From NCBI RefSeq assembly GCF_000243335.1, contig NZ_JH597773.1, positions 3,866,115-3,930,114 on the forward strand: a stretch of 64,000 bases of DNA, read 5' to 3'. The notes beneath the pieces are model-generated. The model was not told the origin of the DNA, did no database searches, and saw only the letters and a list, made by a program, of their open reading frames with translations. Below are positions 35,537 through 55,868 of this stretch, piece by piece (position 1 is the stretch's first letter; each line of letters begins with the position of its first letter). Source of the stretch: Leptonema illini DSM 21528 (GTDB lineage: Bacteria > Spirochaetota > Leptospiria > Leptospirales > Leptonemataceae). A program made the position numbers and the translations under genes.

Positions 35537-35864
35537 AGGCCCTCTCCTTGAGAACACGTCCCAGAGCCCCTCCATGGGTTTTGCGACGGGTGCTAAATGT
35601 CTATATCAATATAGGCGTTCCGCCAACAGAAAAACCTGGCCTTATTCCGGAATATGAATCGTCGCCTTAATATGCTTCAGGTTGGCCACAATCGTAAAAC
35701 TCATCAGCATTCTTATCTTTCCCTTATACTCAGAGGCTTCTCGCTGATTCCGTTCTTATAAAACTGTGACTTTTTGCCATCGATCGAAGCACTGCATTCA
35801 TACTCGTCTGGCCGCCCCAGGGCTCTTTTGCTCCGTTGACATAAAGGAATACAGGAGGAGCACA
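35537..35864. other. Intergenic region between vapBC and kdpABC
   Basis: 328 bases without a gene. It must hold the divergent promoters of vapB and kdpA. The only element I can point to is the CTATAT/ATATAG palindrome at 35601-35614. I looked for a c-di-AMP (ydaO-type) riboswitch ahead of kdpA and saw no convincing core. Confidence 0.5.
35601..35614. promoter_or_regulatory. Palindrome upstream of vapBC, candidate operator
   Basis: CTATATCAATATAG is symmetric about a CA centre and lies 65 bases before the vapB start. It overlaps a possible -10 region, where VapB-type antitoxins usually bind. Inferred only from position and symmetry. Confidence 0.4.
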
Positions 35865-37541
35865 ATGGACTGGATAGAGTTGCTCGTTTATAGCGTGTTG
35901 CTGACGATGACGGCGCCGCTTATCGGAGCGATGGTGGCGACGGTTTTTGATCCGATCATGTTGCGAAGACCGATCGCAGTAGCGGAGCGATGGATTTCGC
36001 TGATCACACGTATTGATCTACAGGAGTCGATGGGCTGGCGCCGCTATGCGTTAACCGCACTGCTTTTCAACCTCGTCGGATTTGTCGTTCTGCTTGTGAT
36101 GCAGCTCTGGCAGTCCGGGCTGCCGCTGAATCCTGCCGACAAAACCGGCGTGCCTCTGGATCTCGCTTTTAATACGGCGGTGAGCTTTGTTACGAATACG
36201 AACTGGCAGGCCTATTCCGGCGAGGATGCGATGTCGTATTTCGTTCAGATGGTCGGATTGGGCGTTCAGAACTTCGTCAGCGCAGCGACGGGCATCGCCG
36301 TCCTGATCGCGTTGATTCGCGGCTTGCGACAGGGCGAATCCGAAGGGATCGGCAACTTCTGGTCTGATCTGTTTCGTTCCGTAATGCTGTTGCTTCCTTT
36401 TTCATTTATCCTGGCGATCTTTCTCGTTTCGCAGGGTGTCGTGATGAACTTCGATGCTCCGGTAACCTCCGTGTTCGATGGTTTTACACAGATACTGCCG
36501 CAGGGACCGGGAGCCTCGCAGATCGCCATCAAGCAGCTGGGCACGAACGGCGGCGGCTATTTCGGCGTGAACAGCGCTCATCCTTACGAGAATCCGACAG
36601 AGTTAGCCAATCTGGCCGAATCGCTTTCTATACTCATTCTGCCCGCCGCCCTTGTTTTTACGTTTGGTCGGATGATCGGCGATGTGCGGCAGGGCCGGGC
36701 CCTTTTCGCCGCGATGATGATTCTCTTTCTTGTCGGCCTTGGCGTCTCACTCCTGTCGGAGTTTCAGGCCAATCCGGCGCTCGGCGTACAGGCCGGCGAG
36801 ATGATGGAGGGCAAGGAGACGCGCTTCGGCGTTACGCAGAGCGTGCTCTGGTCGGTGGCGACCACGGCCGCTTCCAACGGATCGGTAAACGCCATGCATG
36901 ACAGCCTCAGTCCGCTTTCGGGCGGTGTGGCGCTACTCAACATGCTTCTGGGCGAGATCGTATTCGGCGGCGTCGGATCGGGGTTATACGGCATGATCCT
37001 CTTTGTTGTTCTGACCGTATTTATGACGGGCCTGATGGTCGGGCGCAGTCCTGAGTATCTCGGCAAGAGAATCGAGGCCTTCGAAGTAAAGATGGCCATG
37101 ATCGGAGTGCTGGTTCCGGGCGGAGTGGTGCTCGTTCTGACGGGCATTGCATGTATCTATGAACCGGCGCTGCAGAGCCTTACGAATACCGGCCCGCATG
37201 GATTCGCGGAGATACTCTACGCCTTCGCCTCGGGAGCCAATAACAACGGGTCGGCCTTCGGCGGTCTTGCGGCGAATACGCCGTTCTATAATTATACGAT
37301 CGGTGGCGCCATGCTTCTCGGTAGATACGCTCCGATGGTGACGACGCTTGCTATCGCAGGGTCGCTTGCTCGAAAGCGAATCGCTCCGCCTTCCAGCGGC
37401 GTTTTTCCTACGCATTCGCCGCTTTTCGTGCTGTTGTTGATCGGCGTTATACTTATCGTCGGAGCGTTAACCTTTTTCCCGGCCCTCACGCTCGGACCGA
37501 TCCTTGAACATCTTCTTATGCAGTCAGGAGTGACATTATGA
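35865..37541 (+). CDS. kdpA: K+-transporting ATPase potassium-binding subunit
   Basis: 558 residues from the ATG at 35865, with AGGAGG upstream. It has ten hydrophobic segments and the four selectivity-filter-like loops of the KtrB/KdpA fold (including [10 protein letters not shown] and Asn-Asn-Gly-Ser-Ala-Phe). The subunit binds K+ and passes it to KdpB in high-affinity uptake. Its stop codon overlaps the kdpB start (ATGA). Confidence 0.97.
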
Positions 37542-39736
37542 ACATCGAACGTGATTTTGGCGAATTCCCTCGCATTCAGGTCGACACGTCGGCACATCAG
37601 CCTTCCTCTCCGGAGGATCGTCGTAAGAGCTTTAACCGAAAGATCTTTATAGACAGTCTGCGCAGAGCGGTCATGAAGATGCATCCGAAGGAGCAGTTGA
37701 AAAACCCGGTAATGTTTCTCGTGAATATCGGCGCTCTGATCACGACGGGCATCGTAGCTTACGAAGGCTTCACAACCTATCGGGCGGTGTCATCGGCGGA
37801 GAGTGGCTCCCTGTTTTTTCATCTGCAGATCATGGCGTGGCTCTGGTTCACCGTCCTGTTCGCTAATTTTGCAGAGGCTGTGGCTGAGGGAAGGGGCCGA
37901 GCCCAATCGGAGTCTCTACGCAAGAACCGAGCGGAAACGATGGCCCGTCGTCTCAAAGGGGGGAACGGCAACTTTGCAGATCGCTCTGAAGAGTTCGTTC
38001 GAGCCTCGGAACTTCGTGTCGACGATATCGTCGTCTGCGAGGCAGGCGATATCATCCCCTCTGACGGGGACGTGATCGAGGGCGTGGCCAGCGTCGACGA
38101 ATCGGCCGTTACGGGAGAATCGGCCCCCGTCGTGCGCGAAAGCGGCGGCGACCGCTCGGCCGTTACCGGCGGCACACGCGTCACAAGCGACCGTATCTAC
38201 ATTCGAATCACGACGGCTCCTGGCGATACGTTTCTTGATCGTATGATTGCTATGGTAGAAGGTGCCAGCCGTCAGAAGACGCCCAATGAGATCGCGTTAA
38301 GCATACTGCTTGTGGCGCTGTCGGGCATCTTCGTTCTGGCCGTCGGTGCGATGATTCCGTTTCTCATTTATACGGCTCGCGGAGCGCAGGTAGATCCCTC
38401 CTCTCTCGTCGATGTTCCCGTTCTGATCGCCCTTCTTGTCTGTTTGATTCCGACGACGATCGGCGGCTTGCTCTCGGCGATCGGCATCAGCGGCATGGAT
38501 CGATTGATTCGCAAAAACGTCATCGCGACATCGGGTAAGGCGGTCGAGGCCGCGGGCGATATCGACGTTCTTCTGCTCGACAAGACGGGAACGATCACTC
38601 TCGGCAACAGAATGGCCGTGCAATTCCTGCCGGCGGCCGCCGTCGACGAGCTTGAGTTAGCCGAAGCGGCGCAACTCGCCTCTCTCTCCGATGAGACTCC
38701 GGAGGGACGATCCATCGTCGTTCTGGCAAAAGAGCGATTCGGCCTGCGAGCCCGGGACATCGGGAACTGCACGGTGATTCCGTTCAGCGCCCAGACCCGA
38801 ATGAGCGGCATCGATATTCCGGCAACGGATGGTCGTCCGGCTCGATCTTTGCGTAAGGGTGCCGCCGATGCGGTACGCCGTATGGTTCTCGATTCGGGCA
38901 AGGCCTTTCCCTACGAAGTCAATATGTACGTCGAAGATATCGCACAGGCCGGCGGTACTCCGCTGGTAGTCACGGACGCGGGGCGCGTACTCGGCGTTAT
39001 CTTTTTAAAGGACGTGATTAAAGGCGGCATTCGCGAGCGCTTCGCACAACTGCGTCGTATGGGCATCCGCACCGTCATGATCACCGGGGATAACGCGACG
39101 ACGGCCGCTGCGATCGCCGCCGAGGCGGGCGTGGACGATTTCATGGCGCAGGCGACGCCCGAGGCCAAGCTCGCGCGCATCCGGGAGGAGCAGGCCGCCG
39201 GTCATCTCGTCGCTATGACGGGAGACGGAACGAACGACGCTCCGGCGCTGGCGCAGGCCGACGTAGGCGTGGCGATGAACACGGGAACACAGGCCGCTCG
39301 CGAGGCCGGCAACATGGTCGATCTTGATTCTAATCCGACGAAGCTCATCGATATCGTCGAGACGGGGAAGCAGCTTCTGATGACGCGGGGCGCGCTTACG
39401 ATGTTCAGCATCGCCAACGACGTTGCCAAGTATTTCGCGATTCTGCCCGCCATGCTCGGCGGACTCTATGCGGCGGATAACTCCGGTCCGTTGCAGCAAT
39501 TGAATCTGATGAATCTGGCCACCCCGCAGAGCGCCGTGCTCTCGGCTATCATCTTCAACGCCCTGATCATCGTCGCGCTGATACCGCTCGCTCTTCGCGG
39601 AGTGAAATACCGTGCTGTCGGCGCCGAATCGCTGCTCCGACGAAATCTGATCGTCTACGGCTTCGGGGGCCTGATCGCTCCTTTCGCGGGGATTAAGCTC
39701 ATCGATCTCGCCGTGGTGACGATGGGCCTTGTTTAG
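37538..39736 (+). CDS. kdpB: K+-transporting P-type ATPase subunit
   Basis: 732 residues, slightly longer than the usual 680-700 because of an N-terminal hydrophilic stretch of about 50 residues. The phosphorylated Asp lies in Asp-Lys-Thr-Gly-Thr at about residue 348. Thr-Gly-Glu-Ser (actuator) and Gly-Asp-Gly-Thr-Asn-Asp (hinge) are present. It drives K+ import with ATP in complex with KdpA, KdpC and, in many species, KdpF. No kdpF is seen: kdpA follows its own ribosome site directly. Confidence 0.97.
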
Positions 39737-39772
39737 CCGTACAGTCGGCGAGAATACTCCAGAGAGCTTATA

Positions 39773-40327
39773 ATGGAAAAACATATGCTTTATCTCAAAA
39801 TCCTGTTTCAGTCCGTGGTCGGACTCTTATTCCTCACATTGCTTACCGGCATCGTCTATCCGCTTGCCGTATTCGGTTTCGCTCAGGCGATCTTTCCTTA
39901 TCAGAGCAACGGCTCGCTCATCATTGATCGGTCGGGGGGCGTTCTTGGTTCGCAGCTGATCGGGCGTCGCTATGAAAGCGCCGGGTACCTGAAAGGTCGG
40001 CCGTCCGCATCGGAGTATGCAGCCGGTGCGGCGTCGAATCTCGGTCCGATGGATCGCCGGCTGAAGGATCGTGAGCAGAGTGACGATCGACAACCTGTGC
40101 TTCTGCGCTTCAGCTCGGGAAGCGGACTTGATCCGCATATTTCTGGTGATGCCGCCCGTTTTCAGTTCGACCGTATTCTGTCCGAACGGAATATGAAGGA
40201 AGATCAGAGAGCGAGCCTCGAACAGATACTCGCGAAGTGCGGCGAGACCCGGTCGCTTTTCAGAGCGGACAAGGTGAACGTCTTCTGTTTTAATCGCCTG
40301 CTCGATGAAAAGACGTCAGATCGCTGA
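39773..40327 (+). CDS. kdpC: K+-transporting ATPase C chain
   Basis: 184 residues: one N-terminal membrane helix (about 10-35), then the periplasmic domain with Leu-Ile-Gly-Arg-Arg and Gly-Arg-Pro-Ser-Ala. The conserved C-terminal part (Asp-Pro-His-Ile-Ser) is present. It stabilises the KdpFABC complex. It lies between kdpB and kdpD on the same strand with gaps of 36 and 47 bases. Confidence 0.95.
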   Translation: MEKHMLYLKILFQSVVGLLFLTLLTGIVYPLAVFGFAQAIFPYQSNGSLIIDRSGGVLGSQLIGRRYESAGYLKGRPSASEYAAGAASNLGPMDRRLKDREQSDDRQPVLLRFSSGSGLDPHISGDAARFQFDRILSERNMKEDQRASLEQILAKCGETRSLFRADKVNVFCFNRLLDEKTSDR

Positions 40328-40374
40328 AGGATATTTATGGTTAACGTCTGTAATTCCTGATTCGGATCATCCCT

Positions 40375-41757
40375 ATGCAAGATTACAATCGACCTGATCC
40401 GGACGCCCTTCTGCGGCAGATCCAGAAAGAGGAACAGAAGAGGCGTCGCGGACGTCTGACGATATTTCTCGGTATGGCTGCGGGCGTCGGCAAGACCTAC
40501 GCGATGCTTCAGGCGTCGCACCGGCGCAAAACCGAGAGAAACGTGCTGATAGGATTCGTCGAAACGCATGGGCGGGCTGAGACGGCGGCTCTGCTTGAAG
40601 GATTGCCGGTGCTTCCGCGCAAGAAGATCGAGTACAGAGGCGTCCAGCTTGAAGAGATGGATCTTGACGCAGTGCTTGAGAGACGCCCCGACGTCGTCGT
40701 CGTCGACGAGCTCGCCCATACAAACGTGCCGGGAACGCGACATGCAAAGCGGTGGCAGGATGTCGTCGAGATTATTGAGGCGGGCATCGATGTGTGGACC
40801 GCCGTGAATGTGCAGCATGTGGAGTCGCGGTCGGGGACGGCGGCGCAGATTGCCGGCGCAGAGATTCGCGAAACGATCCCCGACAGCGTGCTTGATATGG
40901 CCGACGAGATCGATCTCATCGATATCGCTCCCGATGAGCTGCTGGAACGGTTGCAGGCTGGCCGTATCTACGAGAGGGACCGTGCCCGTCGCGCCCTGGA
41001 TAATTTTTTCAAGCCGGAGCGTCTTATCGCCCTGCGAGAGCTCTCGCTTCGACTAACGGCGGAGCATGTCGATCAGAGCCTGCGCGAGCAGATGCGAGAG
41101 AAGCATATCGAGGGGCCGTGGAAGGCGAACGAGCGCCTGCTCGTGGCCGTTTCTTCTTCGCCGACGGCCGCCGATCTCATACGCTGGACGCGTCGTCAGG
41201 CCTACACGCTGGATTCGCCGTGGACGGCGGTTTATGTGGAGGGATCGCGTCCTCCCGATGCGGTAGATCGACGACGCATCGAATCACATCTTGATCTGGC
41301 GAGAGAACTTGGCGCGGAGGTCATCGTCACACACGACGAAAACGTCGCCGAGGGCATATTGCGGGTCGCACGCGAAACCAATGTGACGCAGATCGTGCTG
41401 GGGCGTACCGGGCTATCGAGATTTGCCGACGTCTTGCGCGGCGGTTCGATCACAAACCGACTGCTTCGCAACAGCGGAAGCATTGATATTCACGTTGTCG
41501 CCGCTCCGCATAAATCGCAGAAAGAAACGAAGCTCAAAGAAGAAGTGTCTTCATCATTAGCAGGTCGTTTCATCTCCAATCGACTGCAATACGCCGTGGC
41601 CGCGCTTGCCGTCGGCATCGTGACGAGGCTCGGTCTTGCCGCTCTTCCGGTTGTCGGCTACTGGTCGATCTCGCTTTTCTTTTTGCTAGCCGTACTCTTG
41701 CTTGCACTCGTCGTCGGTCGCGGCCCCGTTCTACTCGCCGCTGTCCGGGGGGAGTAG
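40375..41757 (+). pseudogene. kdpD: kdpD sensor kinase truncated after its second membrane helix
   Basis: 460 codons remain of a normal length of about 890. Present: the KdpD N-terminal domain with the Walker-A-like loop Gly-Met-Ala-Ala-Gly-Val-Gly-Lys-Thr (about 33-41), the Usp domain (about 245-375), and two of four membrane helices (about 400-455). Missing: the rest of the membrane domain, the GAF region and the histidine kinase. The frame ends a few codons after Gly-Arg-Gly-Pro-Val-Leu-Leu-Ala-Ala-Val, where prophage DNA begins. The stump could still bind c-di-AMP or nucleotide, but cannot phosphorylate KdpE. Confidence 0.88.
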
Positions 41758-41799: not shown

Positions 41800-41868
41800 G
41801 GAAAACGGGGGGAAAACGGGCCAATCCACCCCATTCAGACACCTAAACTGTCACAGAGAGTGTCACAG
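41800..41868. repeat. Short direct repeats at the prophage left end
   Basis: GGAAAACGGG occurs at 41800-41809 and 41811-41820. TGTCACAG occurs at 41849-41856 and 41861-41868, with a similar TGACACA just after. Repeats next to the end of a Mu-like element are expected where the transposase binds. The second pair overlaps the last codons of the C5 methyltransferase gene. Confidence 0.4.
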
Positions 41869-42894
41869 GCTGACACACGATTCCTTGCCTATCACAGCGC
41901 CGCGATCGATTGAGGACACCATAGCGCCCGCCAAAATCCGAATTACCGGGGGGATAACGGAGTTTCCGAGCTGCTTGTAGGCCTGAGAATCGCTCACCGG
42001 GAAGACAAAATCGTCTGGGTAGCCCATCAGGCGAGCGCATTCTCTGGGCGTCAGCCTGCGAGGATTTCGGCCTATTTGCTCGATGAGAATCTCGGCGCCA
42101 TCTTTTCCGTAGCGTGCGGGCAGCGTATTTGCGCAGCCGTCGAGATCTGCGAACCCTTTGACTCCAAATCCATTCCCTTTCTGGCGGTGCTTTTCGGCAT
42201 GGCCTTGCAAGTAAGACCATGTTTTATCGCCGAGCGTATATCGCTCAGGAACATCTACATCGAGGATATCGGCGAGCTTCGGCAACGGGCTCTCGTCAAA
42301 GAGTGATCCGCTGATTGCATCTTCGAAGCGACGCACAAACGCTGCCCATGCTGCTCGATCTCTAAAGCCGGCGATGTATATGCGCTGCCGCTTTTGCGGT
42401 ACCCAGAATCGTCCATCAATCAATTGTACGAAGAGCTTATATCCGAGAGCTTCCAGCGATTTCTGGATAACCGTAAAGGTGCGGCCTCTGTCGTGTGCTT
42501 GGAGGTTTTTCACGTTTTCGAGCAGGAAGGCCGACGGCTGATGCCATTCCAGAATCCGAAGTATCTCGAAGAAGAGCGTGCCAGACGTCTTATCGGCAAA
42601 GCCATGTGGTCGCCCCATCGATTGCTTCTTCGAAACGCCGGCAGAGCTGAACGGCTGACAGGGAAAACCGGCACAAAGCACATCGAATCGCGGAATATCC
42701 ATGGCATGGATGTTCCGAATATCTCCAGCGGGCTCATCACCGAAGTTCTCTTTGTATGTTCGTCGGGCCGATGGATTGATCTCGGATGAAAAAACGCAGC
42801 GGGCTCCGACTGACTCGAAGGCCAGCCTGAACCCGCCGATACCGGCAAAGAGATCAATGATCCTGACAGGATTCATTGCGTTTACTTTTTCCAT
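41863..42894 (-). CDS. Phage C5-cytosine DNA methyltransferase
   Basis: 343 residues. Motif I at 14-22 (Asp-Leu-Phe-Ala-Gly-Ile-Gly-Gly), the catalytic Cys79 in Gly-Phe-Pro-Cys-Gln-Pro-Phe, Glu-Asn-Val (motif VI), Gln-Arg-Ile-Tyr-Ile-Ala-Gly (motif VIII) and Gln-Leu-Gly-Asn-Ser-Val (motif X) are all present, so the enzyme should be active. There is no partner endonuclease. It is the last gene of the early operon and probably shields phage DNA from host restriction. The start may be the ATG at 42876. Confidence 0.93.
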   Translation of the reverse strand: MEKVNAMNPVRIIDLFAGIGGFRLAFESVGARCVFSSEINPSARRTYKENFGDEPAGDIRNIHAMDIPRFDVLCAGFPCQPFSSAGVSKKQSMGRPHGFADKTSGTLFFEILRILEWHQPSAFLLENVKNLQAHDRGRTFTVIQKSLEALGYKLFVQLIDGRFWVPQKRQRIYIAGFRDRAAWAAFVRRFEDAISGSLFDESPLPKLADILDVDVPERYTLGDKTWSYLQGHAEKHRQKGNGFGVKGFADLDGCANTLPARYGKDGAEILIEQIGRNPRRLTPRECARLMGYPDDFVFPVSDSQAYKQLGNSVIPPVIRILAGAMVSSIDRGAVIGKESCVSL

Positions 42895-43120
42895 CAGCTA
42901 ACCTTCTTTCGAAGGCTTCCTTTGCTGCCTTCTTATGACCTTTAAGAAACGGTTGGTCGGCGATAGTAACCTTAAAGACCTCGTTGTCTTTGATGCCGTA
43001 CCATCGAATCAGAGCTTTGATTGCTTGATCGAAACTAACCGCCTCCATCCGAAACGGAATGCTGACCCTCATGTACGTCTTGTTATCCAGAAACTCGATT
43101 CGTCCGCTAAACGCCCTCAT
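42854..43120 (-). CDS. Small phage protein of unknown function
   Basis: 88 residues with a Lys/Arg-rich C-terminus. It overlaps the gene upstream by an ATGA and the C5 methyltransferase downstream by about 40 bases, so it is clearly part of the operon. No motif recognised. Confidence 0.65.
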   Translation of the reverse strand: MRAFSGRIEFLDNKTYMRVSIPFRMEAVSFDQAIKALIRWYGIKDNEVFKVTIADQPFLKGHKKAAKEAFERRLADGKSKRNESCQDH

Positions 43121-43452
43121 ACAGTTTCGCTCTCCTCAACCTGCTTGAGCACAGGACGTGTGTTCCTCTGTCGGTGCAGACATTCGATCATTGCTACAGC
43201 TACGGCAGCGACCTGGATCAATTCCTTTTCATAGTTTTCAATGAGCGTATGAACCGGATGATTTGCTGCATGATATTGCAATGGATTGATCGTAGTCTCA
43301 AAGTGTGCCTCAATGGCAGCCTTGCATACTTCCCCATATTCCTCACCCAGAATACCGAGCCAAATGGTTGGCTCGTGATTTTGCTCTCCCCACATGCCAT
43401 CCTGTCGCTCTCGTTCCTTGGATATTGCATTGAAAATGTCGATCCTGTTCAT
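43117..43452 (-). CDS. MazG-like phage protein
   Basis: 111 residues, helical. Ile-Leu-Gly-Glu-Glu-Tyr-Gly-Glu-Val is the Glu-Glu-x-x-Glu metal motif of all-alpha NTP pyrophosphohydrolases, and Glu-Leu-Ile-Gln-Val-Ala-Ala-Val-Ala is the second helix, lacking the usual Glu-x-x-Asp. It may hydrolyse non-canonical nucleotides or counter (p)ppGpp-type signals, but the weak second motif makes activity uncertain. ATGA overlaps at both ends. Confidence 0.6.
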   Translation of the reverse strand: MNRIDIFNAISKERERQDGMWGEQNHEPTIWLGILGEEYGEVCKAAIEAHFETTINPLQYHAANHPVHTLIENYEKELIQVAAVAVAMIECLHRQRNTRPVLKQVEESETV

Positions 43453-44534
43453 GCCTTCCTCCGTTTGCCTTCGCTAAACTTCTTTAGATTCTGCCTGGCC
43501 TCGTCTGCGTGTTGAGGGCCGAGTTCGATGCCTATGAATTCTCTGTTGTGCTTCAACGCTGCGATGCCTGTCATGCCGGCACCCGCGAAAGGATCGAGGA
43601 CCGTGGCGGGTTTCACAAGACCACTGCACGAACAGGAGCGCTTCCAGTGGTACTCATAGATCCGAGATGCAGAGTCGAGTATTCTGCGCTTCACGTCGGA
43701 GGGGTTCGGGGCTGAAGCATCTTCGTAGTCCTTTCTGCCTTTGCCGTTGTACTGACCGCGTGCATCGCTGCCCATCGCTCGAACCTTGTCGGTCACCTGC
43801 CTGCCGACAACCGTTCGATGCTCGACGAGCGGCGCATGACATTGCTCACAGACGCCCACGCTCGGCGTGCCGCCAATGATCAGGGGTTCGACGAGCTCCG
43901 GCGGGTACGTAGCTGTGTGTGCTCCGTCATAAGACCCGGGCCGAACGATCCAGACAGAATCCCATCCGTGAGTTCCGTGATTCTTAACATGGCGCTTATT
44001 CCAGTAGTATTGCTGGCTCTTCGAGAAAAAGAGAAAAGCTTCATGCCTCGTGTTCGGCCGATCGTTAGCCGATTCCGGAAAACCTCCACCTTTATACCAG
44101 ATGCAATATTGTCGCCAGATCCAACCGTCTGCCTGTAAAGCAAGGGCCAACCGGCTGGGGACTCCGATCAGATTCTTAGACGCAAGGCCGTCAATCCGAC
44201 AACTTCCTTTGCGCCGCTCGCCTGCTCGTCGCCAGTTTCGTTCTGCACGGCCGCATGTCCTCGCCCCGCCGGGGCCGGTGAACTTGTCGCCGATGTTGAT
44301 CCAGAGAGTGCCGGTCTTGTGCAGCACGTCTCTTACTCCTCTGAACACCTGAACCAGTGAGTCGATATACTCATCAATGGTCTGATCCTTACCGATCTCG
44401 CCGGGGCCAGAATCGTAGTCGCGCTGGAGGAAATAAGGGACGCTCGTTATACAGGTCTGCACGCTCTCACGTGTGATGTGCTGCGTGTATGTTCTGGCAT
44501 CTCCGGTGAGAATAAGAGGTGACATCGTTCCCAT
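43449..44534 (-). CDS. Phage N4-cytosine/N6-adenine DNA methyltransferase with variant motif IV
   Basis: 361 residues from the ATG at 44534, six bases after GAGG. The catalytic motif IV is at about 31-34 and SAM motif I near the C-terminus (Val-Leu-Asp-Pro-Phe-Ala-Gly-Ala-Gly-Met-Thr), the beta-class order. Motif IV reads Thr-Ser-Val-Pro-Tyr, where Ser-Pro-Pro-Tyr is expected. A Cys-x-x-Cys and a Cys-x-Cys in the second half may bind zinc. It probably protects phage DNA, if the variant motif is active. Confidence 0.85.
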   Translation of the reverse strand: MGTMSPLILTGDARTYTQHITRESVQTCITSVPYFLQRDYDSGPGEIGKDQTIDEYIDSLVQVFRGVRDVLHKTGTLWINIGDKFTGPGGARTCGRAERNWRRAGERRKGSCRIDGLASKNLIGVPSRLALALQADGWIWRQYCIWYKGGGFPESANDRPNTRHEAFLFFSKSQQYYWNKRHVKNHGTHGWDSVWIVRPGSYDGAHTATYPPELVEPLIIGGTPSVGVCEQCHAPLVEHRTVVGRQVTDKVRAMGSDARGQYNGKGRKDYEDASAPNPSDVKRRILDSASRIYEYHWKRSCSCSGLVKPATVLDPFAGAGMTGIAALKHNREFIGIELGPQHADEARQNLKKFSEGKRRKA

Positions 44535-44535
44535 C

Positions 44536-44976
44536 TCACACCTCAATCTGATTGCGGCTGCACATGCTTTTCAATGCCTCGATAACTGCCTGCGCTTCCC
44601 GCCGATTCAGCTTCGATCCTTCTTTGCCGAACATGCGTCTGGAGAGCGAATCCAGAGAGAGTTTCGGATAGATACCGTTGACCCTCTCGATTAAGATCGC
44701 CAACTTCTCATCCTGCTCCTCTGTGCGGCGCCATGCGTCGATTCGGGCGACGCCCGTGCTCTTATCTTTCAGGAGCTGATTTCTCTTCGCCTTCTGGAGC
44801 AGATCATTCAGGCGGCGAATGACTTCCTTTCCTTCGGCCTCCGTCAGATCGCTGATCGAGCTTTTCCCCGTGGCTGACATCACGAGGGTGTAAAGCTGAT
44901 CATCGGTCATGCGCAGGCCGCCTTTTGCGATTCCCCAGATGCGCTTTATCGCACCCTTCGTGATATCGTTCTTCAC
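44536..44976 (-). CDS. gemA: GemA / Mu gp16-like regulatory protein
   Basis: 146 residues from a GTG at 44976 with AGGAG upstream. The opening (Ile-Lys-Arg-Ile-Trp-Gly-Ile-Ala-Lys, then Thr-Asp-Asp-Gln-Leu-Tyr-Thr-Leu-Val, then Thr-Gly-Lys-Ser-Ser-Ile-Ser-Asp-Leu-Thr) is the DUF1018/GemA signature. In Mu, GemA alters host supercoiling and gene expression. Its position downstream of Gam matches other Mu-like phages. Confidence 0.85.
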   Translation of the reverse strand: MKNDITKGAIKRIWGIAKGGLRMTDDQLYTLVMSATGKSSISDLTEAEGKEVIRRLNDLLQKAKRNQLLKDKSTGVARIDAWRRTEEQDEKLAILIERVNGIYPKLSLDSLSRRMFGKEGSKLNRREAQAVIEALKSMCSRNQIEV

Positions 44977-44988
44977 TGTTGTATCTCC

Positions 44989-45225
44989 TCAGATCTCAAG
45001 CGTGCCGGCGATGCGCCAGCCCTTCTGTTTTGCATAGGATCGCAGGTCGGACTCTGCTTCCTCGGGATTAGTTCGAACCGGCAGGAGGGAAGGAGCGATT
45101 CGCTTTTTCATGCGATCACCTTCGCGCATCCTTACGGAGAAGTAGGCGGGCTCCCTTCCGGGAGCCCGAGTTACAGCGTAGAAAACGTCCAGCGATGCCG
45201 GGTCGTTATACAGGGTGACCACCAT
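44989..45225 (-). CDS. Small phage protein of unknown function
   Basis: 78 residues. The ATG overlaps the Gam stop codon (TGATG). Mixed strands and helices, basic in the middle, no motif. Its place between gam and gemA fits a non-essential early gene. Confidence 0.6.
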   Translation of the reverse strand: MVVTLYNDPASLDVFYAVTRAPGREPAYFSVRMREGDRMKKRIAPSLLPVRTNPEEAESDLRSYAKQKGWRIAGTLEI

Positions 45226-45788
45226 CAGGCGACCTCCATCTCCGTGTCGATGGTGTTAGGCTTCACGTAGAAGCGTTCGATGCCGCTTTCGATTTCAATA
45301 CCGAAGTCTGCAGCCGATTCGGGATCAGCCAGCACGCCTTCTTTATCGAGTTCGAGTTTGAGGCGGAGGAATACCTTGCGCAGCTTCGAGCGTAATCGGT
45401 CGGTTGCACCCACGAGGTCCGCCGTTTCGAGAATGGACTGGATGAGACGATCAGTCGAACGAGTCGCAACGGCCGCTGTTTTTGCTCGATAGGCGATCGA
45501 CCCTGTGGGCAGATCCACGCTCTTCTTGTCAGGCGCGATGAGCTGCGATCGGTTTGCATCGGCGAATACCTTCACACCTTTTGCAAGGGCTTGAATACGC
45601 TGATCGACAGGGGCAACTTCAGAGGCCAGTTGCTCTTGAAGCTCCTGGATTCTCCCGTTGTAGATGTTCTCGATATCGTTCTTGCGGCGCTGGAGATCAC
45701 CGATCTCCTTGATCGCTTTTTCGAGTTCGAGCTTGTCATGGATTGCCGCGGGTTCAATGCCGGGCGCTTTTGCTTTGGTTTTAGCCAT
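45225..45788 (-). CDS. gam: Mu Gam-like DNA-end-binding protein
   Basis: 187 residues. The long coiled helix at about 20-75, followed by Val-Asp-Leu-Pro-Thr-Gly-Ser-Ile-Ala-Tyr-Arg-Ala-Lys, is diagnostic of the Mu Gam family, a bacterial Ku relative that coats double-strand ends and blocks RecBCD-type nucleases. Starts at an ATG after GAGGTTACACG. Confidence 0.9.
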   Translation of the reverse strand: MAKTKAKAPGIEPAAIHDKLELEKAIKEIGDLQRRKNDIENIYNGRIQELQEQLASEVAPVDQRIQALAKGVKVFADANRSQLIAPDKKSVDLPTGSIAYRAKTAAVATRSTDRLIQSILETADLVGATDRLRSKLRKVFLRLKLELDKEGVLADPESAADFGIEIESGIERFYVKPNTIDTEMEVA

Positions 45789-45987: not shown

Positions 45988-46977
45988 TTATCCGACCGCT
46001 TCGATCTCTTTCTCCTGACCTGCTCCGACGATGCTTGCGACTGCATTCTCCAGTTGCTGGCCGATTGCCGAATCCTGTAGCTTGCCGCTGAGCATCTCGC
46101 TGATCCGCTGCCGACTGGCGCTCTTCACGCCTTTTTCTTTTGCCAGATCGGTCAGTTGCTGTAGTGTATAACCACTCTGCTTGACCATCCACTTCAAGGA
46201 GAGGAGCGGCAGGATTTGCAGGTGATCCTTTCGCACGGTGATCGGCTGATGATCGGGCCAATCGACGAATTCCTCCGTCTGGCGCAGAGCCATTGAAACG
46301 TATTTCACGCCGAGCGGGGTCTTATGCCTGACGACGGCCGGAAAGCGTTCCTTTGTCTTAATATCCTGAAATTTCAGATTCCACTTTTGCTCTGCGAACA
46401 GAATGATTTCCTCTGACGTCAGCAGCTCCAGCTTGACTCGATTGATTCGATAGCCGAGCTCCGGGAGCGAGAACAGGCGATCCCATGTGTTGTGCAGCTT
46501 TCCGAAGTAGAGAATCGAGAACAGATTGTCCTGATGCTCTCCGCGTCGATCTCGCCCGTCGATTTCATGGAGCTTCTTGAGATCTCGGAAAGTCTGCAGA
46601 CTGAGATCCTGTGCCTCATCGATGGCAAGGATTACCCTCCTGTTGTTATGAGTGGCGTTATACCGCAGCGCTCGGGCGAGCACTTCGTAGCGTGATTCGA
46701 TATCGCCGGGAATGTGAAGCTCCGGATCAATCGCTCGAACGAGCAGCTTGCTGAGCGCCGAGATGCGCGACGGTCCCTGTCCTTTGAACGCCTTTACCTT
46801 CACAACCGAAAACTTGTGCGGATATTGCTGCCAGTAGTCGACCATGTGGTTATACAGGGTCGTCTTTCCGCTGCCCACCTCAGCCATTACAGCGAGCATT
46901 CCGTTCGTCTGCAATGCTCTCGTGCATGCAGCTTTCACTGCGCGCACGTTTCTCGTTTCAACGAGCTTCGTTGTCAT
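45988..46977 (-). CDS. MuB-like transposition target-selection ATPase
   Basis: 329 residues. Walker A at about 33-40 (Glu-Val-Gly-Ser-Gly-Lys-Thr-Thr) and Walker B at 115-124 (Val-Ile-Leu-Ala-Ile-Asp-Glu-Ala-Gln-Asp) belong to an AAA+ ATPase of the MuB/TniB group. The C-terminal region has a second HTH-like helix set (Leu-Gln-Gln-Leu-Thr-Asp-Leu-Ala-Lys). MuB picks target DNA and activates the transposase. It overlaps the transposase gene by 20 bases. Confidence 0.9.
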   Translation of the reverse strand: MTTKLVETRNVRAVKAACTRALQTNGMLAVMAEVGSGKTTLYNHMVDYWQQYPHKFSVVKVKAFKGQGPSRISALSKLLVRAIDPELHIPGDIESRYEVLARALRYNATHNNRRVILAIDEAQDLSLQTFRDLKKLHEIDGRDRRGEHQDNLFSILYFGKLHNTWDRLFSLPELGYRINRVKLELLTSEEIILFAEQKWNLKFQDIKTKERFPAVVRHKTPLGVKYVSMALRQTEEFVDWPDHQPITVRKDHLQILPLLSLKWMVKQSGYTLQQLTDLAKEKGVKSASRQRISEMLSGKLQDSAIGQQLENAVASIVGAGQEKEIEAVG

Positions 46978-50304: not shown

Positions 50305-50754
50305 TCAGATCACGAGGTTATCTTCTACGATCTGCATGCATTCTCTCGCCGTGTTGCGAGTGATCCGCTTCATGGCCTGCTCGCGAACCTCAATGGATCG
50401 CTCAGCGCCAATCTTCCCGCGCAAACGCGCTACGGATTTCCGGGCAAACTCCGCTCTATCGAGTGCGTTCTCGACTGCGCGGACGAGCTGCTGGTATGTG
50501 GGTTCGTCTACCAGCGCCGTCGAGGCTGAGGCGAGTTCGTTATAGTCCAGATGGATATCGTTGTTTTCCATCTTCTCGAACATCGATACGAAGGCGAAAT
50601 GGAAGAACATGTCGCGATCTGCTTCGCGCATGCCTCTTGTGATCTCGATCATCGTATCAACGTATAGATGAGCCGCCGACGTGGATTGCTCCATTGCGCC
50701 GTCGTATGTTATCGGTATCAGGGTTATCCCTGCGTCTTCAGGAAGTCCTTTCAT
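50305..50754 (-). CDS. Phage early protein of unknown function
   Basis: 149 residues from the ATG at 50754, which has GGAGATCACGA upstream; the longer frame crosses the tRNA-like element and is not used. All-helical and acidic, with an Arg/Lys-rich C-terminal third. No motif recognised. Confidence 0.6.
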   Translation of the reverse strand: MKGLPEDAGITLIPITYDGAMEQSTSAAHLYVDTMIEITRGMREADRDMFFHFAFVSMFEKMENNDIHLDYNELASASTALVDEPTYQQLVRAVENALDRAEFARKSVARLRGKIGAERSIEVREQAMKRITRNTARECMQIVEDNLVI

Positions 50755-50781
50755 TCGTGATCTCCGTTTTTGTTTTCTTCT

Positions 50782-50857
50782 GTGAGGATGGAGGAGTCGA
50801 ACCTCCAGATTGCGTGCGGTCTTTCTCCGCAGCCCATGGCGACGAGCGCAACCCTCA
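50782..50857 (-). other. tRNA-like element (degenerate) in the early operon
   Basis: Read on the minus strand, 76 bases fold as a cloverleaf. The acceptor is TGAGGGT with ATCCTCA (one G-T pair). The T arm is GGAGG-TTCGACT-CCTCC with a perfect T loop. The anticodon-like arm is TGCGG-AGAAAGA-CCGCA, and a weak 4-bp D-like arm is GCTC/GGGC. It lacks U33, the D-loop GG and an encoded CCA, so decoding is doubtful. It occupies the only non-coding gap (122 bases) in this part of the operon. Confidence 0.45.
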
Positions 50858-50876
50858 CCACGATTCCTCGTATGGC

Positions 50877-51101
50877 TCATTCGCCTTTCTCAACCATGAT
50901 GACGTTGTTTGCCGCATCGAAACTGAATCCCTCCGGCAGGTCCGGGTAGATCGTCTGGAGGCGGTTAAAAAAATCCTTGTGTGCCTTCTCGTATGCATCT
51001 GCACAGAAAATAAACGCCGCATAGTGCTCTCGCATTCTCTGGATGAGAGGCCGCAGATCTTCTGCGACTTCATCGCTGATTTTGCAGTATTCTGTTAGCA
51101 T
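50877..51101 (-). CDS. Small phage early protein
   Basis: 74 residues, helical and acidic, with a final Val-Ile-Met-Val-Glu-Lys strand. Start overlaps the stop codon of the preceding gene. No motif recognised. Confidence 0.6.
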   Translation of the reverse strand: MLTEYCKISDEVAEDLRPLIQRMREHYAAFIFCADAYEKAHKDFFNRLQTIYPDLPEGFSFDAANNVIMVEKGE

Positions 51102-51520
51102 GCCGATCGCTCCTTTTCTCGTTGTTCGATCTTTACCAGGATCTCAGCATCTTTCTGGAGGGCCTCGAAGGGGTTCGGGCCATCCTCACGGCAAAGAGAG
51201 ATCATAGATACACAGTCCCTCTCATTGCGAATGCAGCCGGGCTGATACAGGCTGACGTCGTTTCTATGCTCTCTTAACCAGCGCACTACATTGGTTAACG
51301 GTAGCTCCATCACCTCGGCAAGATATGGCGATTCATTAAATGCGGTTCGAACTCTTACAAGCTCCTGCGCCCATATTGGATGAATGTTCAGACCGTCGCT
51401 GAGGTATTTCCACCAGCTTCTGTGACGTCGATAGAGGTGCATCTTGCGAGATTTTGCAAATTGGAGCACATCGGCTAAGGCGATAAGTTGCTCGGCAGAT
51501 GCATAGATGCGGGGCCTCAT
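51095..51520 (-). CDS. Phage early protein of unknown function
   Basis: 141 residues. The ATG at 51520 overlaps the stop codon of the Ner-like gene (ATGA), which decides the start. The N-terminal half is basic and Trp/Arg-rich (His-Arg-Ser-Trp-Trp-Lys-Tyr), the C-terminal half is acidic with a Cys pair. No family recognised. Confidence 0.6.
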   Translation of the reverse strand: MRPRIYASAEQLIALADVLQFAKSRKMHLYRRHRSWWKYLSDGLNIHPIWAQELVRVRTAFNESPYLAEVMELPLTNVVRWLREHRNDVSLYQPGCIRNERDCVSMISLCREDGPNPFEALQKDAEILVKIEQREKERSAC

Positions 51521-51807
51521 GATGCACGACCTTCTTTCGGCCATCGCTGCAACATTGGCCAGAGGGTTAGCACTTCGCGGTTGGACAGGCCTAACCTGTT
51601 TTGAATTGTTGCTACATGCCTGACGATGAAGAGGCGGCCATGAATCATGTCGCTCATCTGGGTGTAAGGGATACTGAGCGCCCGAGATGCGGCGGTGATC
51701 GTGCCGAATTCTCGAATGATTCGTCGTCGCAAATCGGCAAGGCCGTTGATACCGTCAGTCGGTTGCGCCTTGAGGCTATTGCTAACTCTATCCTGGACAG
51801 ATTGCAT
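51517..51807 (-). CDS. Ner/Cro-like DNA-binding regulator, first early gene
   Basis: 96 residues. The helix-turn-helix is at about 35-58 (Ile-Thr-Ala-Ala-Ser-Arg-Ala-Leu-Ser-Ile-Pro-Tyr-Thr-Gln-Met-Ser-Asp-Met-Ile). It is the first gene of the leftward early operon, with AAGGAGATTACA before the ATG. In Mu, ner at this position shuts down early and repressor transcription. The same role here is inferred. Confidence 0.7.
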   Translation of the reverse strand: MQSVQDRVSNSLKAQPTDGINGLADLRRRIIREFGTITAASRALSIPYTQMSDMIHGRLFIVRHVATIQNRLGLSNREVLTLWPMLQRWPKEGRAS

Positions 51808-52145: not shown

Positions 52146-52161
52146 AAATCAAGCAAAAAAT

Positions 52162-52177
52162 GCTCCGAATTCGGAGC
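52162..52177. promoter_or_regulatory. Operator palindrome 2 of the phage repressor
   Basis: Same 16 bases as the first operator. It ends 12 bases before the TTG chosen as the repressor start and overlaps an in-frame ATG (52160), which is one reason to reject that ATG. Binding here would block the repressor's own translation start region or promoter. Confidence 0.7.
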
Positions 52178-52189
52178 TGGCGGTTTTTT

Positions 52190-52936
52190 TTGAAAGATCG
52201 GATTAAGGCGATAATAGACCATTTGGGGATCAGCCAGAGCGAGTTTGCAAAGCGGGCGCATATTTCGACTGGTCGCCTCAGCGATTTGCTTTCCGGCCGC
52301 GTGAAATCCTTGTCGGCCGAGGCTATAGCATCCGTGCACAGGGCCTTTTCAGTTGATACGAACTGGCTCCTAACCGGTGAAGGAAAAATGTTCCATACTG
52401 TTACACGCCCGCAGCACTTGGATGATATCGTAGAAGGTCAGATTATTCCACCCACATCTGCACCGTCTGATGATCTCCCCGAGGGCTGGATTGCTGTAGA
52501 CAGTTTGCCGAAGATTGTATTACGGTATTATCCTGGCGGGATTCCGGCAGGCCCTCTGGATCTGGCAGACGATTACTATGAGCTGGTTCAGGTGCCGATG
52601 ACCGGCGCTGTCGGACCGGGATGCATAATGATACGTGTGCGAGGAAACTCGATGATCGGGGCTGGTATTTATGATAACGACATTATGTGTGTGGATACAG
52701 GGAAGCGCCACCCTGAGAATGGCGACGTCGTCGTCGTGACTGTGGACGGGGAGTCAACGGTCAAGTACTGGTATCAGGATGGCGATCGTGTCATTCTCTG
52801 TCCCGATTCTGAATTGCATGATCCGATTGATGTGACGGGGCGAGAGATCATCGTCAACGGCACCGTTACCGAAGTGAAGCGCTTTGTGAAGAAAGGAAAG
52901 CCTATGCCTAAGAACGGCAATGGGAATGGAAAGTGA
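52190..52936 (+). CDS. Phage repressor, HTH plus S24 (LexA-like) peptidase
   Basis: 248 residues from a TTG at 52190, so that helix 1 (Lys-Asp-Arg-Ile-Lys-Ala-Ile-Ile) begins the protein. HTH at about 14-37 (Ser-Gln-Ser-Glu-Phe-Ala-Lys-Arg-Ala-His-Ile-Ser). The S24 domain has a candidate Ala120-Gly121 cleavage site, S154 (Arg-Gly-Asn-Ser-Met) and K192 (Ser-Thr-Val-Lys-Tyr). Such repressors cleave themselves when RecA is activated, so induction by DNA damage is expected. That differs from Mu's own repressor. Confidence 0.88.
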   Translation: MKDRIKAIIDHLGISQSEFAKRAHISTGRLSDLLSGRVKSLSAEAIASVHRAFSVDTNWLLTGEGKMFHTVTRPQHLDDIVEGQIIPPTSAPSDDLPEGWIAVDSLPKIVLRYYPGGIPAGPLDLADDYYELVQVPMTGAVGPGCIMIRVRGNSMIGAGIYDNDIMCVDTGKRHPENGDVVVVTVDGESTVKYWYQDGDRVILCPDSELHDPIDVTGREIIVNGTVTEVKRFVKKGKPMPKNGNGNGK

Positions 52937-53848: not shown

Positions 53849-54589
53849 ATGGCAATCAACAGCAAAATCGAATGGACTGATGCGACATGGAATCCAGTGC
53901 GAGGATGCACGAAAATTTCTCCTGGCTGCAAACACTGCTATGCGAAGACTTTCGCAGAGCGCTTTCGTGGAGTAAAGGGTCACCCATTCGAAAACGGATT
54001 CGATCTTCAGCTCGTTCCGGATAAACTGCTTGAACCCTTGAAATGGAAGTCACCGAAGAAGATCTTCGTTAACTCTATGAGCGATCTTTTTCACGAAGCA
54101 ATTCCCGATGAATATATCCTGAAGTGCTTTCAGATCATGGCCGAAGCGAACTGGCATACATATCAAGTTTTGACGAAGCGAGATGCCCGAATGTCGGCAT
54201 TGAGCCATACGCTTCTTGCAGAATTTGGCCATCTCGATCATATATGGTGGGGAGTCAGTGTCGAGGATCGCCAGTACGGTGTTCCGCGCATTAAGCGACT
54301 CCAGGATGCCAGTTGCGCGACTCGATTTCTCTCTGTTGAGCCGTTGCTTGAAGATCTGGGTGAGCTGGATCTGGACGGTATCCACTGGGTGATTGTGGGC
54401 GGCGAAAGTGGCCCCGGAGCAAGGCCGATGCAGGAGAGTTGGGTTGTATCGCTTCGTGACCAGTGCAAGGCACAGGATGTTCCTTTCTTCTTCAAACAAT
54501 GGGGCGGCGTGCAGAAGAAGAAAACGGGGCGGTTGTTGAAGGGACGAACCTATGATGGTATGCCGAAGGCTAAATTGATGAAGGTATAG
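53849..54589 (+). CDS. DUF5131 (phage Gp37/Gp68) three-Cys-motif protein
   Basis: 246 residues. The opening (Ile-Glu-Trp-Thr-Asp-Ala-Thr-Trp-Asn-Pro) and the Cys-x7-Cys-x2-Cys motif at about residues 20-31 are characteristic of DUF5131. The three Cys recall the iron-sulphur site of radical-SAM enzymes with altered spacing. Trp-Gly-Val-Ser-Val-Glu and Val-Gly-Gly-Glu-Ser-Gly blocks follow. Function unknown. It is regularly found beside tcmP, as here (7 bases apart). Confidence 0.85.
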   Translation: MAINSKIEWTDATWNPVRGCTKISPGCKHCYAKTFAERFRGVKGHPFENGFDLQLVPDKLLEPLKWKSPKKIFVNSMSDLFHEAIPDEYILKCFQIMAEANWHTYQVLTKRDARMSALSHTLLAEFGHLDHIWWGVSVEDRQYGVPRIKRLQDASCATRFLSVEPLLEDLGELDLDGIHWVIVGGESGPGARPMQESWVVSLRDQCKAQDVPFFFKQWGGVQKKKTGRLLKGRTYDGMPKAKLMKV

Positions 54590-54596
54590 TGATCAG

Positions 54597-55868
54597 ATGG
54601 GAAAGAATCAAGCGCATTGGTCGGCTGACGGATCAATCATGCCGAAACTTGAAATCCATACGAAGAAAAAGCATGAAATCTACAGCCACTATCTTCATGA
54701 TTGGATTCTCACGACATGCGGTAATCATCGCGGCAATTCTTCCACTGTCACGATTGTAGATGGTTTCTGCGGTGGTTCTTTCTACAGGCAGCCCGACAGT
54801 TCAGATATATGGTATGGGTCACCGGTCCGGATCTTGAAGGCCATTAAGGAAGGATTGAATTCCGTAGCCGAGAGAAAAGGTAAGACCGGGTACCAGCTGG
54901 ATTACAAAGTCATACTGATGGATAATCAGCAGGAACATCTCGACTCGACGAGGAATGCCCTCGAAGCGAATGGATTCGGCAACGAAGTGAGAGATGGCAG
55001 ATGCGAATTCATGAAGGGTGACTTTACCTCGCTACTTCCACAGTGCCTTGATGCGGTGCGAAAACGCAAGGGCTATTCAGTGTTCTTGATCGACCCATTC
55101 GGTTACACGGATTTCAGTATGGCTGATCTAAGATCCATCATGCAGCTGGGTCGCACCGAGATATTCCTGACCTTCATGATCGAGTTCGTGCAGCGCTTCA
55201 TGTCTCTCCGGGAAGCAAAGCTACGGGATGCTTTTGAAAGGGTGCTCGAAGCGAACGGCTTTTTTACGGAATATGCTGTGGGGCGATCAGACTCCGAAGG
55301 GCAGCAGATCTACCTGAAACATGAATCGCAGCGACTGATTCGAGAGCGAGTCGGTCCTAATTACCTCTACGTCTTCAGTCTGATGGCCGAGAGAAACAAG
55401 ACCAAGTACTATCTCTTTCACCTTGCAAATAGCCCAAGGGCGACTCAGGTTGTAAAGGATACTCTATGGGCTCACAACAACATCAATCTACAGTATGGAT
55501 TCGCAGGCGGGCAATTCGGGCTCGGCCATATTACGCCCGACTACCTTGAGGAGCTTGAACAGCAAAAACTCTTTGTCATTGAAGACATCAATGCTGAAGC
55601 TGCAAAAGATGCGCTATTCCCAACGCTTATTGATCAGATCGATAGAAATCGAAACGGTATAACGTTTCAGCAGGTTGAAATCAATACCATGCAGGAAAAC
55701 CCTGCTCGATCGTCCATGTATCAGGATGTAATAAGAAGCATTCGGGACGAAGGCGATGTGGCAATCTACCGTGATGGTAAGAGCACAAGGGCTATGCATT
55801 TGCGTTCCGGTGATGTTATTCGCCGAATCCCAAAGCAGTTGTTTCTATTCGGACCGAAACCTCCTTGA
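54597..55868 (+). CDS. tcmP: Three-Cys-motif partner protein TcmP
   Basis: 423 residues. The Lys-His-Glu-Ile-Tyr-x-His-Tyr opening, Val-Asp-Gly-Phe-Cys-Gly-Gly (Rossmann/SAM-like loop at about 57-64) and Ile-Asp-Pro-Phe-Gly-Tyr (about 162-167) match the TcmP family. It has methyltransferase-like features but no proven activity. The name records its constant pairing with three-Cys-motif proteins such as the preceding gene. Together they form a mobile two-gene unit of unknown purpose. Confidence 0.85.
   Translation: MGKNQAHWSADGSIMPKLEIHTKKKHEIYSHYLHDWILTTCGNHRGNSSTVTIVDGFCGGSFYRQPDSSDIWYGSPVRILKAIKEGLNSVAERKGKTGYQLDYKVILMDNQQEHLDSTRNALEANGFGNEVRDGRCEFMKGDFTSLLPQCLDAVRKRKGYSVFLIDPFGYTDFSMADLRSIMQLGRTEIFLTFMIEFVQRFMSLREAKLRDAFERVLEANGFFTEYAVGRSDSEGQQIYLKHESQRLIRERVGPNYLYVFSLMAERNKTKYYLFHLANSPRATQVVKDTLWAHNNINLQYGFAGGQFGLGHITPDYLEELEQQKLFVIEDINAEAAKDALFPTLIDQIDRNRNGITFQQVEINTMQENPARSSMYQDVIRSIRDEGDVAIYRDGKSTRAMHLRSGDVIRRIPKQLFLFGPKPP

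Follow-up and report, generated by a model that had tools for sequence, protein, structure and literature searches.

A tRNA-like element between early genes of a Mu-like prophage of Leptonema illini as a possible mRNA processing signal

The question raised by this locus is what a tRNA-like sequence without a decodable anticodon does between two protein-coding genes of a phage operon. The element is located in a stretch of 64,000 nucleotides of the Leptonema illini 3055T genome, referred to as the window, which carries a transposable Mu-like prophage with genes encoding MuA-like, MuB-like and Gam proteins and a divergently oriented repressor (Table 1). This prophage is probably identical with ILNN158, which is described in PMC8705779 as the one transposable prophage of L. 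illini, and the prophage itself is probably already known. According to the same source it is present in two L. illini genomes and, since both carry the same prophage, the second genome would add no variation. There is no mention of tRNA in the main text of PMC8705779, and a report of this RNA was not found in the literature searched.

The early operon is oriented leftward. The open reading frames taken as genes between positions 45988 and 51807 either overlap or are separated by at most 16 nt, with the exception of the gap between the 74-aa and the 149-aa reading frames, and the preliminary description was correct in calling this the only sizeable gap of the region. The extent of the gap depends on the start codon assigned to the downstream gene, as the rule-based reading frame begins at ATG 50880 (50305-50880) and ATG 50754 is the start chosen by us. 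With this start, the gap has an A-rich stretch and a GGAG ribosome-binding site (50765-50762) at its end, and neither promoters nor terminators were found within it. No homologues of the flanking 149-aa and 74-aa proteins were found in IMG/VR, the 149-aa protein has no match in Pfam, PHROGs or NCBIfam, and the 74-aa protein has none in Pfam or PHROGs.

Table 1. Features of the tRNA-like element, of the early operon of the Leptonema prophage and of the conserved block in related phages. Positions refer to the window unless a region is named.
Feature	Position	Strand	Basis or remark
tRNA-like element	50782..50858	-	sequence; Rfam RF01852 28.9 bits; pairs and energies
Acceptor, 8 bp, one G-U	50858-50851/50789-50782	-	strands GUGAGGGU/AUCCUCAC
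D-type hairpin, 4 bp, GCUC/GGGC, loop GUCGCCAU	50847-50832	-	sequence
Anticodon-type hairpin, 5 bp, UGCGG/CCGCA, loop AGAAAGA	50831-50815	-	sequence
T arm, stem GGAGG/CCUCC, loop UUCGACU	50790..50806	-	sequence, pairing
GAGGA, rival 5' partner of acceptor 3' strand UCCUC (50788-50784)	50865..50869	-	folding; ARAGORN at lowered threshold
Intercistronic gap, 122 nt given start at 50754	50755..50876	-	sequence, ORF list
149-aa ORF downstream of element	50305..50754	-	start chosen at ATG 50754; no known family
74-aa ORF upstream of element	50877..51101	-	no known family
96-aa ORF, called Ner-like	51517..51807	-	name from position; no family match
LexA/S24-type repressor, divergent from early operon	52160..52936	+	phrog_4; TIGR00498 below its cut-off
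MuA-like DDE transposase, 587 aa	46958..48721	-	matches phrog_310 (transposase); phrog_2610, of unknown function, matches best
MuB-like AAA ATPase	45988..46977	-	matches phrog_296 (DNA transposition protein); phrog_2630, of unknown function, matches best
Mu Gam-like protein	45225..45788	-	phrog_491
106-nt block of related phages	L034 1752-1857; L054 3674-3779	sense to operon	102/106 identical

The element is co-directional with the operon, and the ribosome-binding site of the downstream gene follows directly after it. Its sequence yields the tRNA-like cloverleaf with a flawless T arm that had been reported in the preliminary description, and the acceptor is present in tRNA-like spacing to the T arm, although it comprises 8 bp including one G-U pair and not 7 bp as had been stated. 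The two reported deviations from a functional tRNA were likewise evident from the sequence, as the anticodon-type loop AGAAAGA lacks U33 and cannot be decoded and the D loop of this cloverleaf, GUCGCCAU, lacks the GG required for the elbow contact. An encoded CCA is absent from the element as well, but this is no strong objection, since ARAGORN detects a terminal CCA in only nine of the 41 host tRNA genes. By contrast with these decoding features, an acceptor-like helix of 11-13 bp stacked on the T stem-loop, which is characteristic of RNase P substrates, is predicted for the element, with 8 + 5 bp in the cloverleaf or 5 + 6 bp in an alternative fold.

The programs and models for tRNA detection returned weak scores. 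ARAGORN predicted no gene at the locus with default settings; at a threshold of 90% it reported an 89-nt tRNA with undefined anticodon at 50870-50782, in which GAGGA serves as acceptor strand and the anticodon-type hairpin becomes a (long) variable arm. Since this reading differs from the cloverleaf, the assignment of the arms is not unique. The Rfam tRNA model RF00005 (cut-off 29 bits) listed 44 places of the Leptonema genome at E<=10, 41 of them above the cut-off, and the locus was not among them. The best-scoring Rfam model for the element was that of selenocysteine tRNA (RF01852) with 28.9 bits, which is below the cut-off of 47 bits and corresponds to an E value of 0.0019 in the search of 901 nt against 4227 families and of 0.0022 for this model in the whole genome. 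At E<=1, with 150 of the 415 first-look candidates scored, RF01852 matched 20 places in the host genome, of which 19 are tRNA genes according to RF00005 and the twentieth is the element. With this score and the loop AGAAAGA in place of a UCA anticodon, the element does not belong to the tRNA-Sec family. The best RF01852 match of the host (47.4 bits, cut-off 47) is tRNA-Ser(UGA) according to ARAGORN and reaches 61.7 bits with RF00005, so that no genuine tRNA-Sec was seen in the host. At the Rfam gathering score no family matches the window, including the C4 antisense RNA family, which we take to be present in the Rfam library.

To estimate how often such a structure arises by chance, both strands were searched for a motif consisting of a perfect 5-bp T stem, a TTCRANY loop and seven contiguous acceptor pairs in tRNA-like spacing, which was chosen after the element had been seen but is composed of textbook tRNA features. 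The window contains one instance of this motif, and 400 dinucleotide shuffles together yielded one as well. The element is thus statistically tRNA-like with weak scores, and according to the motif rate it is not chance-like.

Folding calculations gave different results for the isolated element and for its mRNA context. The folding energy of the element is only slightly exceptional (z -1.95; eight of 200 shuffles were as good), and the best isolated fold (-32.6 kcal/mol) is not the strict cloverleaf (-29.9 kcal/mol). Acceptor pairs 1-6 have probabilities of 0.88-1.0 in the isolated element, versus 0.11-0.22 for pairs 7-8. The T arm is formed with a probability of 0.98-0.99 in isolation and in contexts of at least 116 nt (0.36 in a 96-nt context), whereas that of the cloverleaf acceptor decreases to 0.00-0.03 in contexts of at least 116 nt and is at most 0.18 in the 96-nt context. 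The cloverleaf acceptor is predicted to be unstable within the mRNA because the upstream GAGGA pairs with its 3' strand; the fold containing the GAGGA/UCCUC helix has an energy of -39.4 kcal/mol, compared with -36.3 kcal/mol when six cloverleaf acceptor pairs are forced, and is better by about 3 kcal/mol. In this alternative fold, the 5-bp GAGGA/UCCUC helix is likewise stacked on the T stem, which comprises 6 bp there.

Relatives of the transposase were drawn from 198 genomes of the phylum, IMG/VR, GTDB genomes and plasmids, and the scanned set comprised 17 distinct early regions with 93,236 nt, including region L042 with only 1,344 nt, the stretch of which starts at a contig end. More distant records, 52 from phages and 12 of the 13 from plasmids, with transposases that are only about 23-26% identical in the matches listed, lay outside the scan. 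The survey was based on a perfect T arm and at least six acceptor pairs, a rule that was set after the elements had been seen. A minihelix of this type was detected on the sense strand of three of the 17 early regions, namely the window, L050 and L054, and on the antisense strand of none of the 17. Among 200 rounds of dinucleotide shuffling, 196 yielded no hit and four yielded a hit in one phage, with a mean of 0.02 hits. L050 is derived from the same contig as L034 (IMG/VR 3300048837_002000), L054 represents the same place as L037 (metagenome-assembled genome Spirochaetales bacterium H5_SPI1) and, since L050 and L054 are homologous, the three positives amount to two independent cases. The motif is absent from the other 14 early regions, among them L057 and L053, whose transposases are similarly close to that of the window (47% and 43% identity, respectively). 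With a looser rule, weak candidates appeared in L043, in L047 and twice in L038, which shares its phage with L053. All of these candidates fail the strict rule, indicating that loose matches are not rare. An annotation gap in the prophage of a Leptospira weilii plasmid (L098 4717-4875), located after the third early gene and comparable in position to that of the window, contains no tRNA-like match. Searches of IMG/VR with the Ner-like and gene-1 proteins revealed no new phage, and neither the four of 296 genomes detected with the Ner-like protein nor the five of 30 detected in an order-wide transposase search were additional to the known set. A poor covariance score and a lack of stem conservation in relatives had been named in the preliminary description as arguments against the element. 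The outcome is mixed, as the score lies below the curated cut-off and no homologue of the exact element was found, yet an acceptor/T-arm minihelix recurs in the early operons of two relatives.

In these relatives the element occupies another place than in the window, after the first early gene and before the Ner-like gene. It is made up of a 6-bp acceptor, a mini-hairpin of 3 bp and a perfect T arm, an anticodon arm being absent; the Ner-like protein of the window is homologous to the product of the gene directly downstream of this mini-tRNA in L034 and L054 (39% identity over 77 aa). The mini-tRNA and the conserved nucleotides after it constitute a 106-nt block (Table 1) that is far more similar between L034 and L054 than its surroundings, for which the DNA identity is 64% in gene 1, 70% in the Ner-like gene and 72% in the transposase gene. 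Two of the four differences within the block form one compensatory pair (positions 53/64), which is part of a hairpin immediately 3' of the mini-tRNA. With the flanks given, the acceptor probability in L034 and L054 ranges from 0 to 0.7, and the stability of the block does not exceed that of mononucleotide shuffles (z about +0.4). The L034 copy attains an E value of 0.35 with the mascRNA model RF01684, whereas the near-identical L037 copy does not match any Rfam model at E<=1. From the variable arm to the acceptor, the L054 copy resembles a spirochaete tRNA-Ser(UGA) along the 3' half of the latter, with 84% identity over 37 nt comprising variable arm and T arm; this is the sole such match in 296 genomes besides the block itself. 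It differs from tRNA-Ser in that D and anticodon arms are missing, the 5' acceptor strand GCGCAG lies directly upstream and about 60 conserved nt follow. The block was also considered as a host tRNA or a spread repeat and rejected as either, since it is present in one of 198 genomes (G005) and one IMG/VR contig, with matches in two of 296 genomes (G005 and, inside tRNA-Ser, G203). A covariance model of the block (R1) gave six matches at E<=10 in 21 sources, among which some contigs are represented twice, and none in the window. The elements of the window and of the relatives also differ in sequence, size and gene position, and their homology is unsupported.

Several explanations of the element have to be weighed against these data. 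If translation of the downstream gene started at ATG 50880, the element would encode an Arg-rich N-terminus of 42 residues, and this frame is indeed open and begins in an ATGA overlap with the stop codon of the upstream gene. However, the 42 extra codons have a score of -0.294, compared with an out-of-frame mean of -0.139 (sd 0.209, 115 windows), and none of the 45 in-frame windows compared scores as low (lowest -0.222), in what is a weak test of one short stretch, another frame of which scores +0.071. In addition, a good GGAG site precedes ATG 50754. A coding function is therefore considered very unlikely, and the gap is taken to be non-coding with modest confidence. The element might also be a GC-rich intercistronic stretch that resembles a tRNA by chance, the element of the relatives being unrelated. 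The marginal folding z value and a covariance score that does not reach the curated cut-off are in agreement with such a coincidence, as are the different position and sequence of the relatives' element, a cloverleaf that is disfavoured in context and ambiguous in its arms, and a rate of one match per about 400 windows, which is not negligible across many windows. The genome-wide E value and the occurrence of two independent cases in 17 regions, as opposed to the mean number of hits in shuffles, argue against chance, which we regard as a possible but rather unlikely origin.

Descent from a captured tRNA gene that is decaying and without function, as had been suggested in the preliminary description, is doubtful as well. 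It would account for the lack of U33 and of the D-loop GG and for the sub-threshold scores, and a comparison with all 41 host tRNA genes identified tRNA-Gln(UUG) as the closest, with 22 of 25 nt identical over the variable region and the T arm. The corresponding score of 19 arose in one of 300 dinucleotide-shuffled versions of the element, and tRNA-Gln genes of other spirochaetes match the same part; the resemblance of the relatives' element to tRNA-Ser(UGA) may point in the same direction. When the T arm was kept and the rest shuffled, however, 105 of 300 controls reached a score of 19, so that the likeness to tRNA-Gln is a T-arm likeness and no proof of descent. A remnant of a tRNA is possible but rather unlikely, and a specific ancestry is unsupported. 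Moreover, the acceptor and T stems are intact, and decay does not explain why the element of the relatives is conserved far beyond the surrounding genes. Among 198 genomes, a search at the DNA level for relatives of the element returned short matches only, some of them inside real tRNA-Gln genes, and nothing convincing was found in phages or plasmids. A duplicated host tRNA end was ruled out, since the 3' 20-mer of the element occurs only once in the genome with up to three mismatches allowed. The preliminary description had further proposed a decoy for tRNA-cutting host defences such as PrrC, to which a working non-canonical tRNA, for instance of the selenocysteine type, may be added. Bacterial tRNA-Sec has a 13-bp acceptor plus T branch, as does the cloverleaf of the element, and RF01852 is the best-scoring model. 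Both proposals are nevertheless extremely improbable, as the hairpin contains neither U33 nor a UCA anticodon, the best RF01852 match of the host is tRNA-Ser(UGA) with no genuine tRNA-Sec seen, and the relatives' element is devoid of an anticodon arm. The decoy of the PrrC type is left unsupported by the latter finding, and we know of no anticodon nuclease that targets AGAAAGA.

An mRNA processing signal of the RNase P type, the remaining suggestion of the preliminary description, fits the data best and is tentatively preferred, short of an even chance, with cleavage being a prediction. This preference follows from the position of the element between cistrons, its co-directional orientation with the operon and the retention of the acceptor/T-arm half along with the absence of decoding features; moreover, the early operons of two related phages contain a mini-tRNA reduced to roughly this half. 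According to PMC11143913, model hairpins with an acceptor stem, a T stem and a T loop are cut by RNase P. The element would then form part of the early mRNA of the Mu-like prophage as a tRNA-like RNA in which the half recognised by RNase P would have been kept and the decoding features would have been lost or never have been present. If the element is transcribed and acted on by RNase P or RNase Z, as we infer, cleavage by RNase P would take place at its 5' end and part the upstream cistrons, among them the Ner-like and 74-aa genes, from those leading to the transposase and MuB genes. The two halves of the message could thereupon be expressed or decay differently, and it may be speculated that the competing GAGGA strand makes the cut dependent on RNA folding. 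A more general scheme is improbable, namely that tRNAs stripped down to acceptor and T arm have been recruited repeatedly as cis-acting RNase P switches of the early operons in transposable phages of Leptospirales-like spirochaetes and that the acceptor 3' strand of the Leptonema element, with its two 5' partners, would leave it to folding to decide on a cut between regulatory and transposition genes.

To our knowledge, there are very few phages in which RNase P is known to cut a message at a tRNA mimic contained in it. The precursor of the C4 antisense RNA of P1 and P7 was reportedly found by Hartmann in 1995 to be an RNase P substrate. It is comparable to the processing signal considered here as a phage regulatory RNA with RNase P cutting, which is only predicted for the element, and it is different in being an antisense RNA of an immunity operon. 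The mascRNA/menRNA family (RF01684) likewise represents a tRNA-like element at an RNA processing point. Its members combine acceptor and T arm with a reduced middle part and are found at the ends of mammalian nuclear lncRNAs. The L034 element is similar to them with 26.6 bits for RF01684, but this value is below the cut-off of 42.5 bits, and neither the L037 copy nor the element of the window was listed with this model. Selenocysteine tRNA (RF01852) shares the 8 + 5 bp acceptor/T branch with the element of the window and is its best Rfam model, but differs from it in score and anticodon. If a processing signal were confirmed, it would represent a point at which transposable phages control their lysis-lysogeny operon, in a group of bacteria for which genetic tools are scarce, and it would show how tRNA pieces turn into mRNA signals.

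Additional observations were made in the vicinity of the early operon. Beside the repressor gene, the window encodes a radical-SAM-like protein (weak TIGR04471 match, below cut-off) that adjoins a three-Cys-motif partner TcmP (TIGR04474, above cut-off) at 53849-55868 on the plus strand. A gene annotated as belonging to the Gp37/Gp68 family is also present in the prophage of the Leptospira weilii plasmid (L098 14033-14770), by which no relation to the TcmP pair is implied. Downstream of the Gam gene, two DNA methyltransferase-like genes are located at 41863-44546 on the minus strand, one of the cytosine-5 type (above the TIGR00675 cut-off) and one of the adenine type (weak matches). Beside the early genes there is a block of large opposite-strand reading frames with 591, 732, 184 and 460 aa (35766-41757, plus strand), in which the 732-aa frame matches a phage ATPase family and the 591-aa and 460-aa frames have no PHROG match, and which perhaps represents cargo or defence genes.
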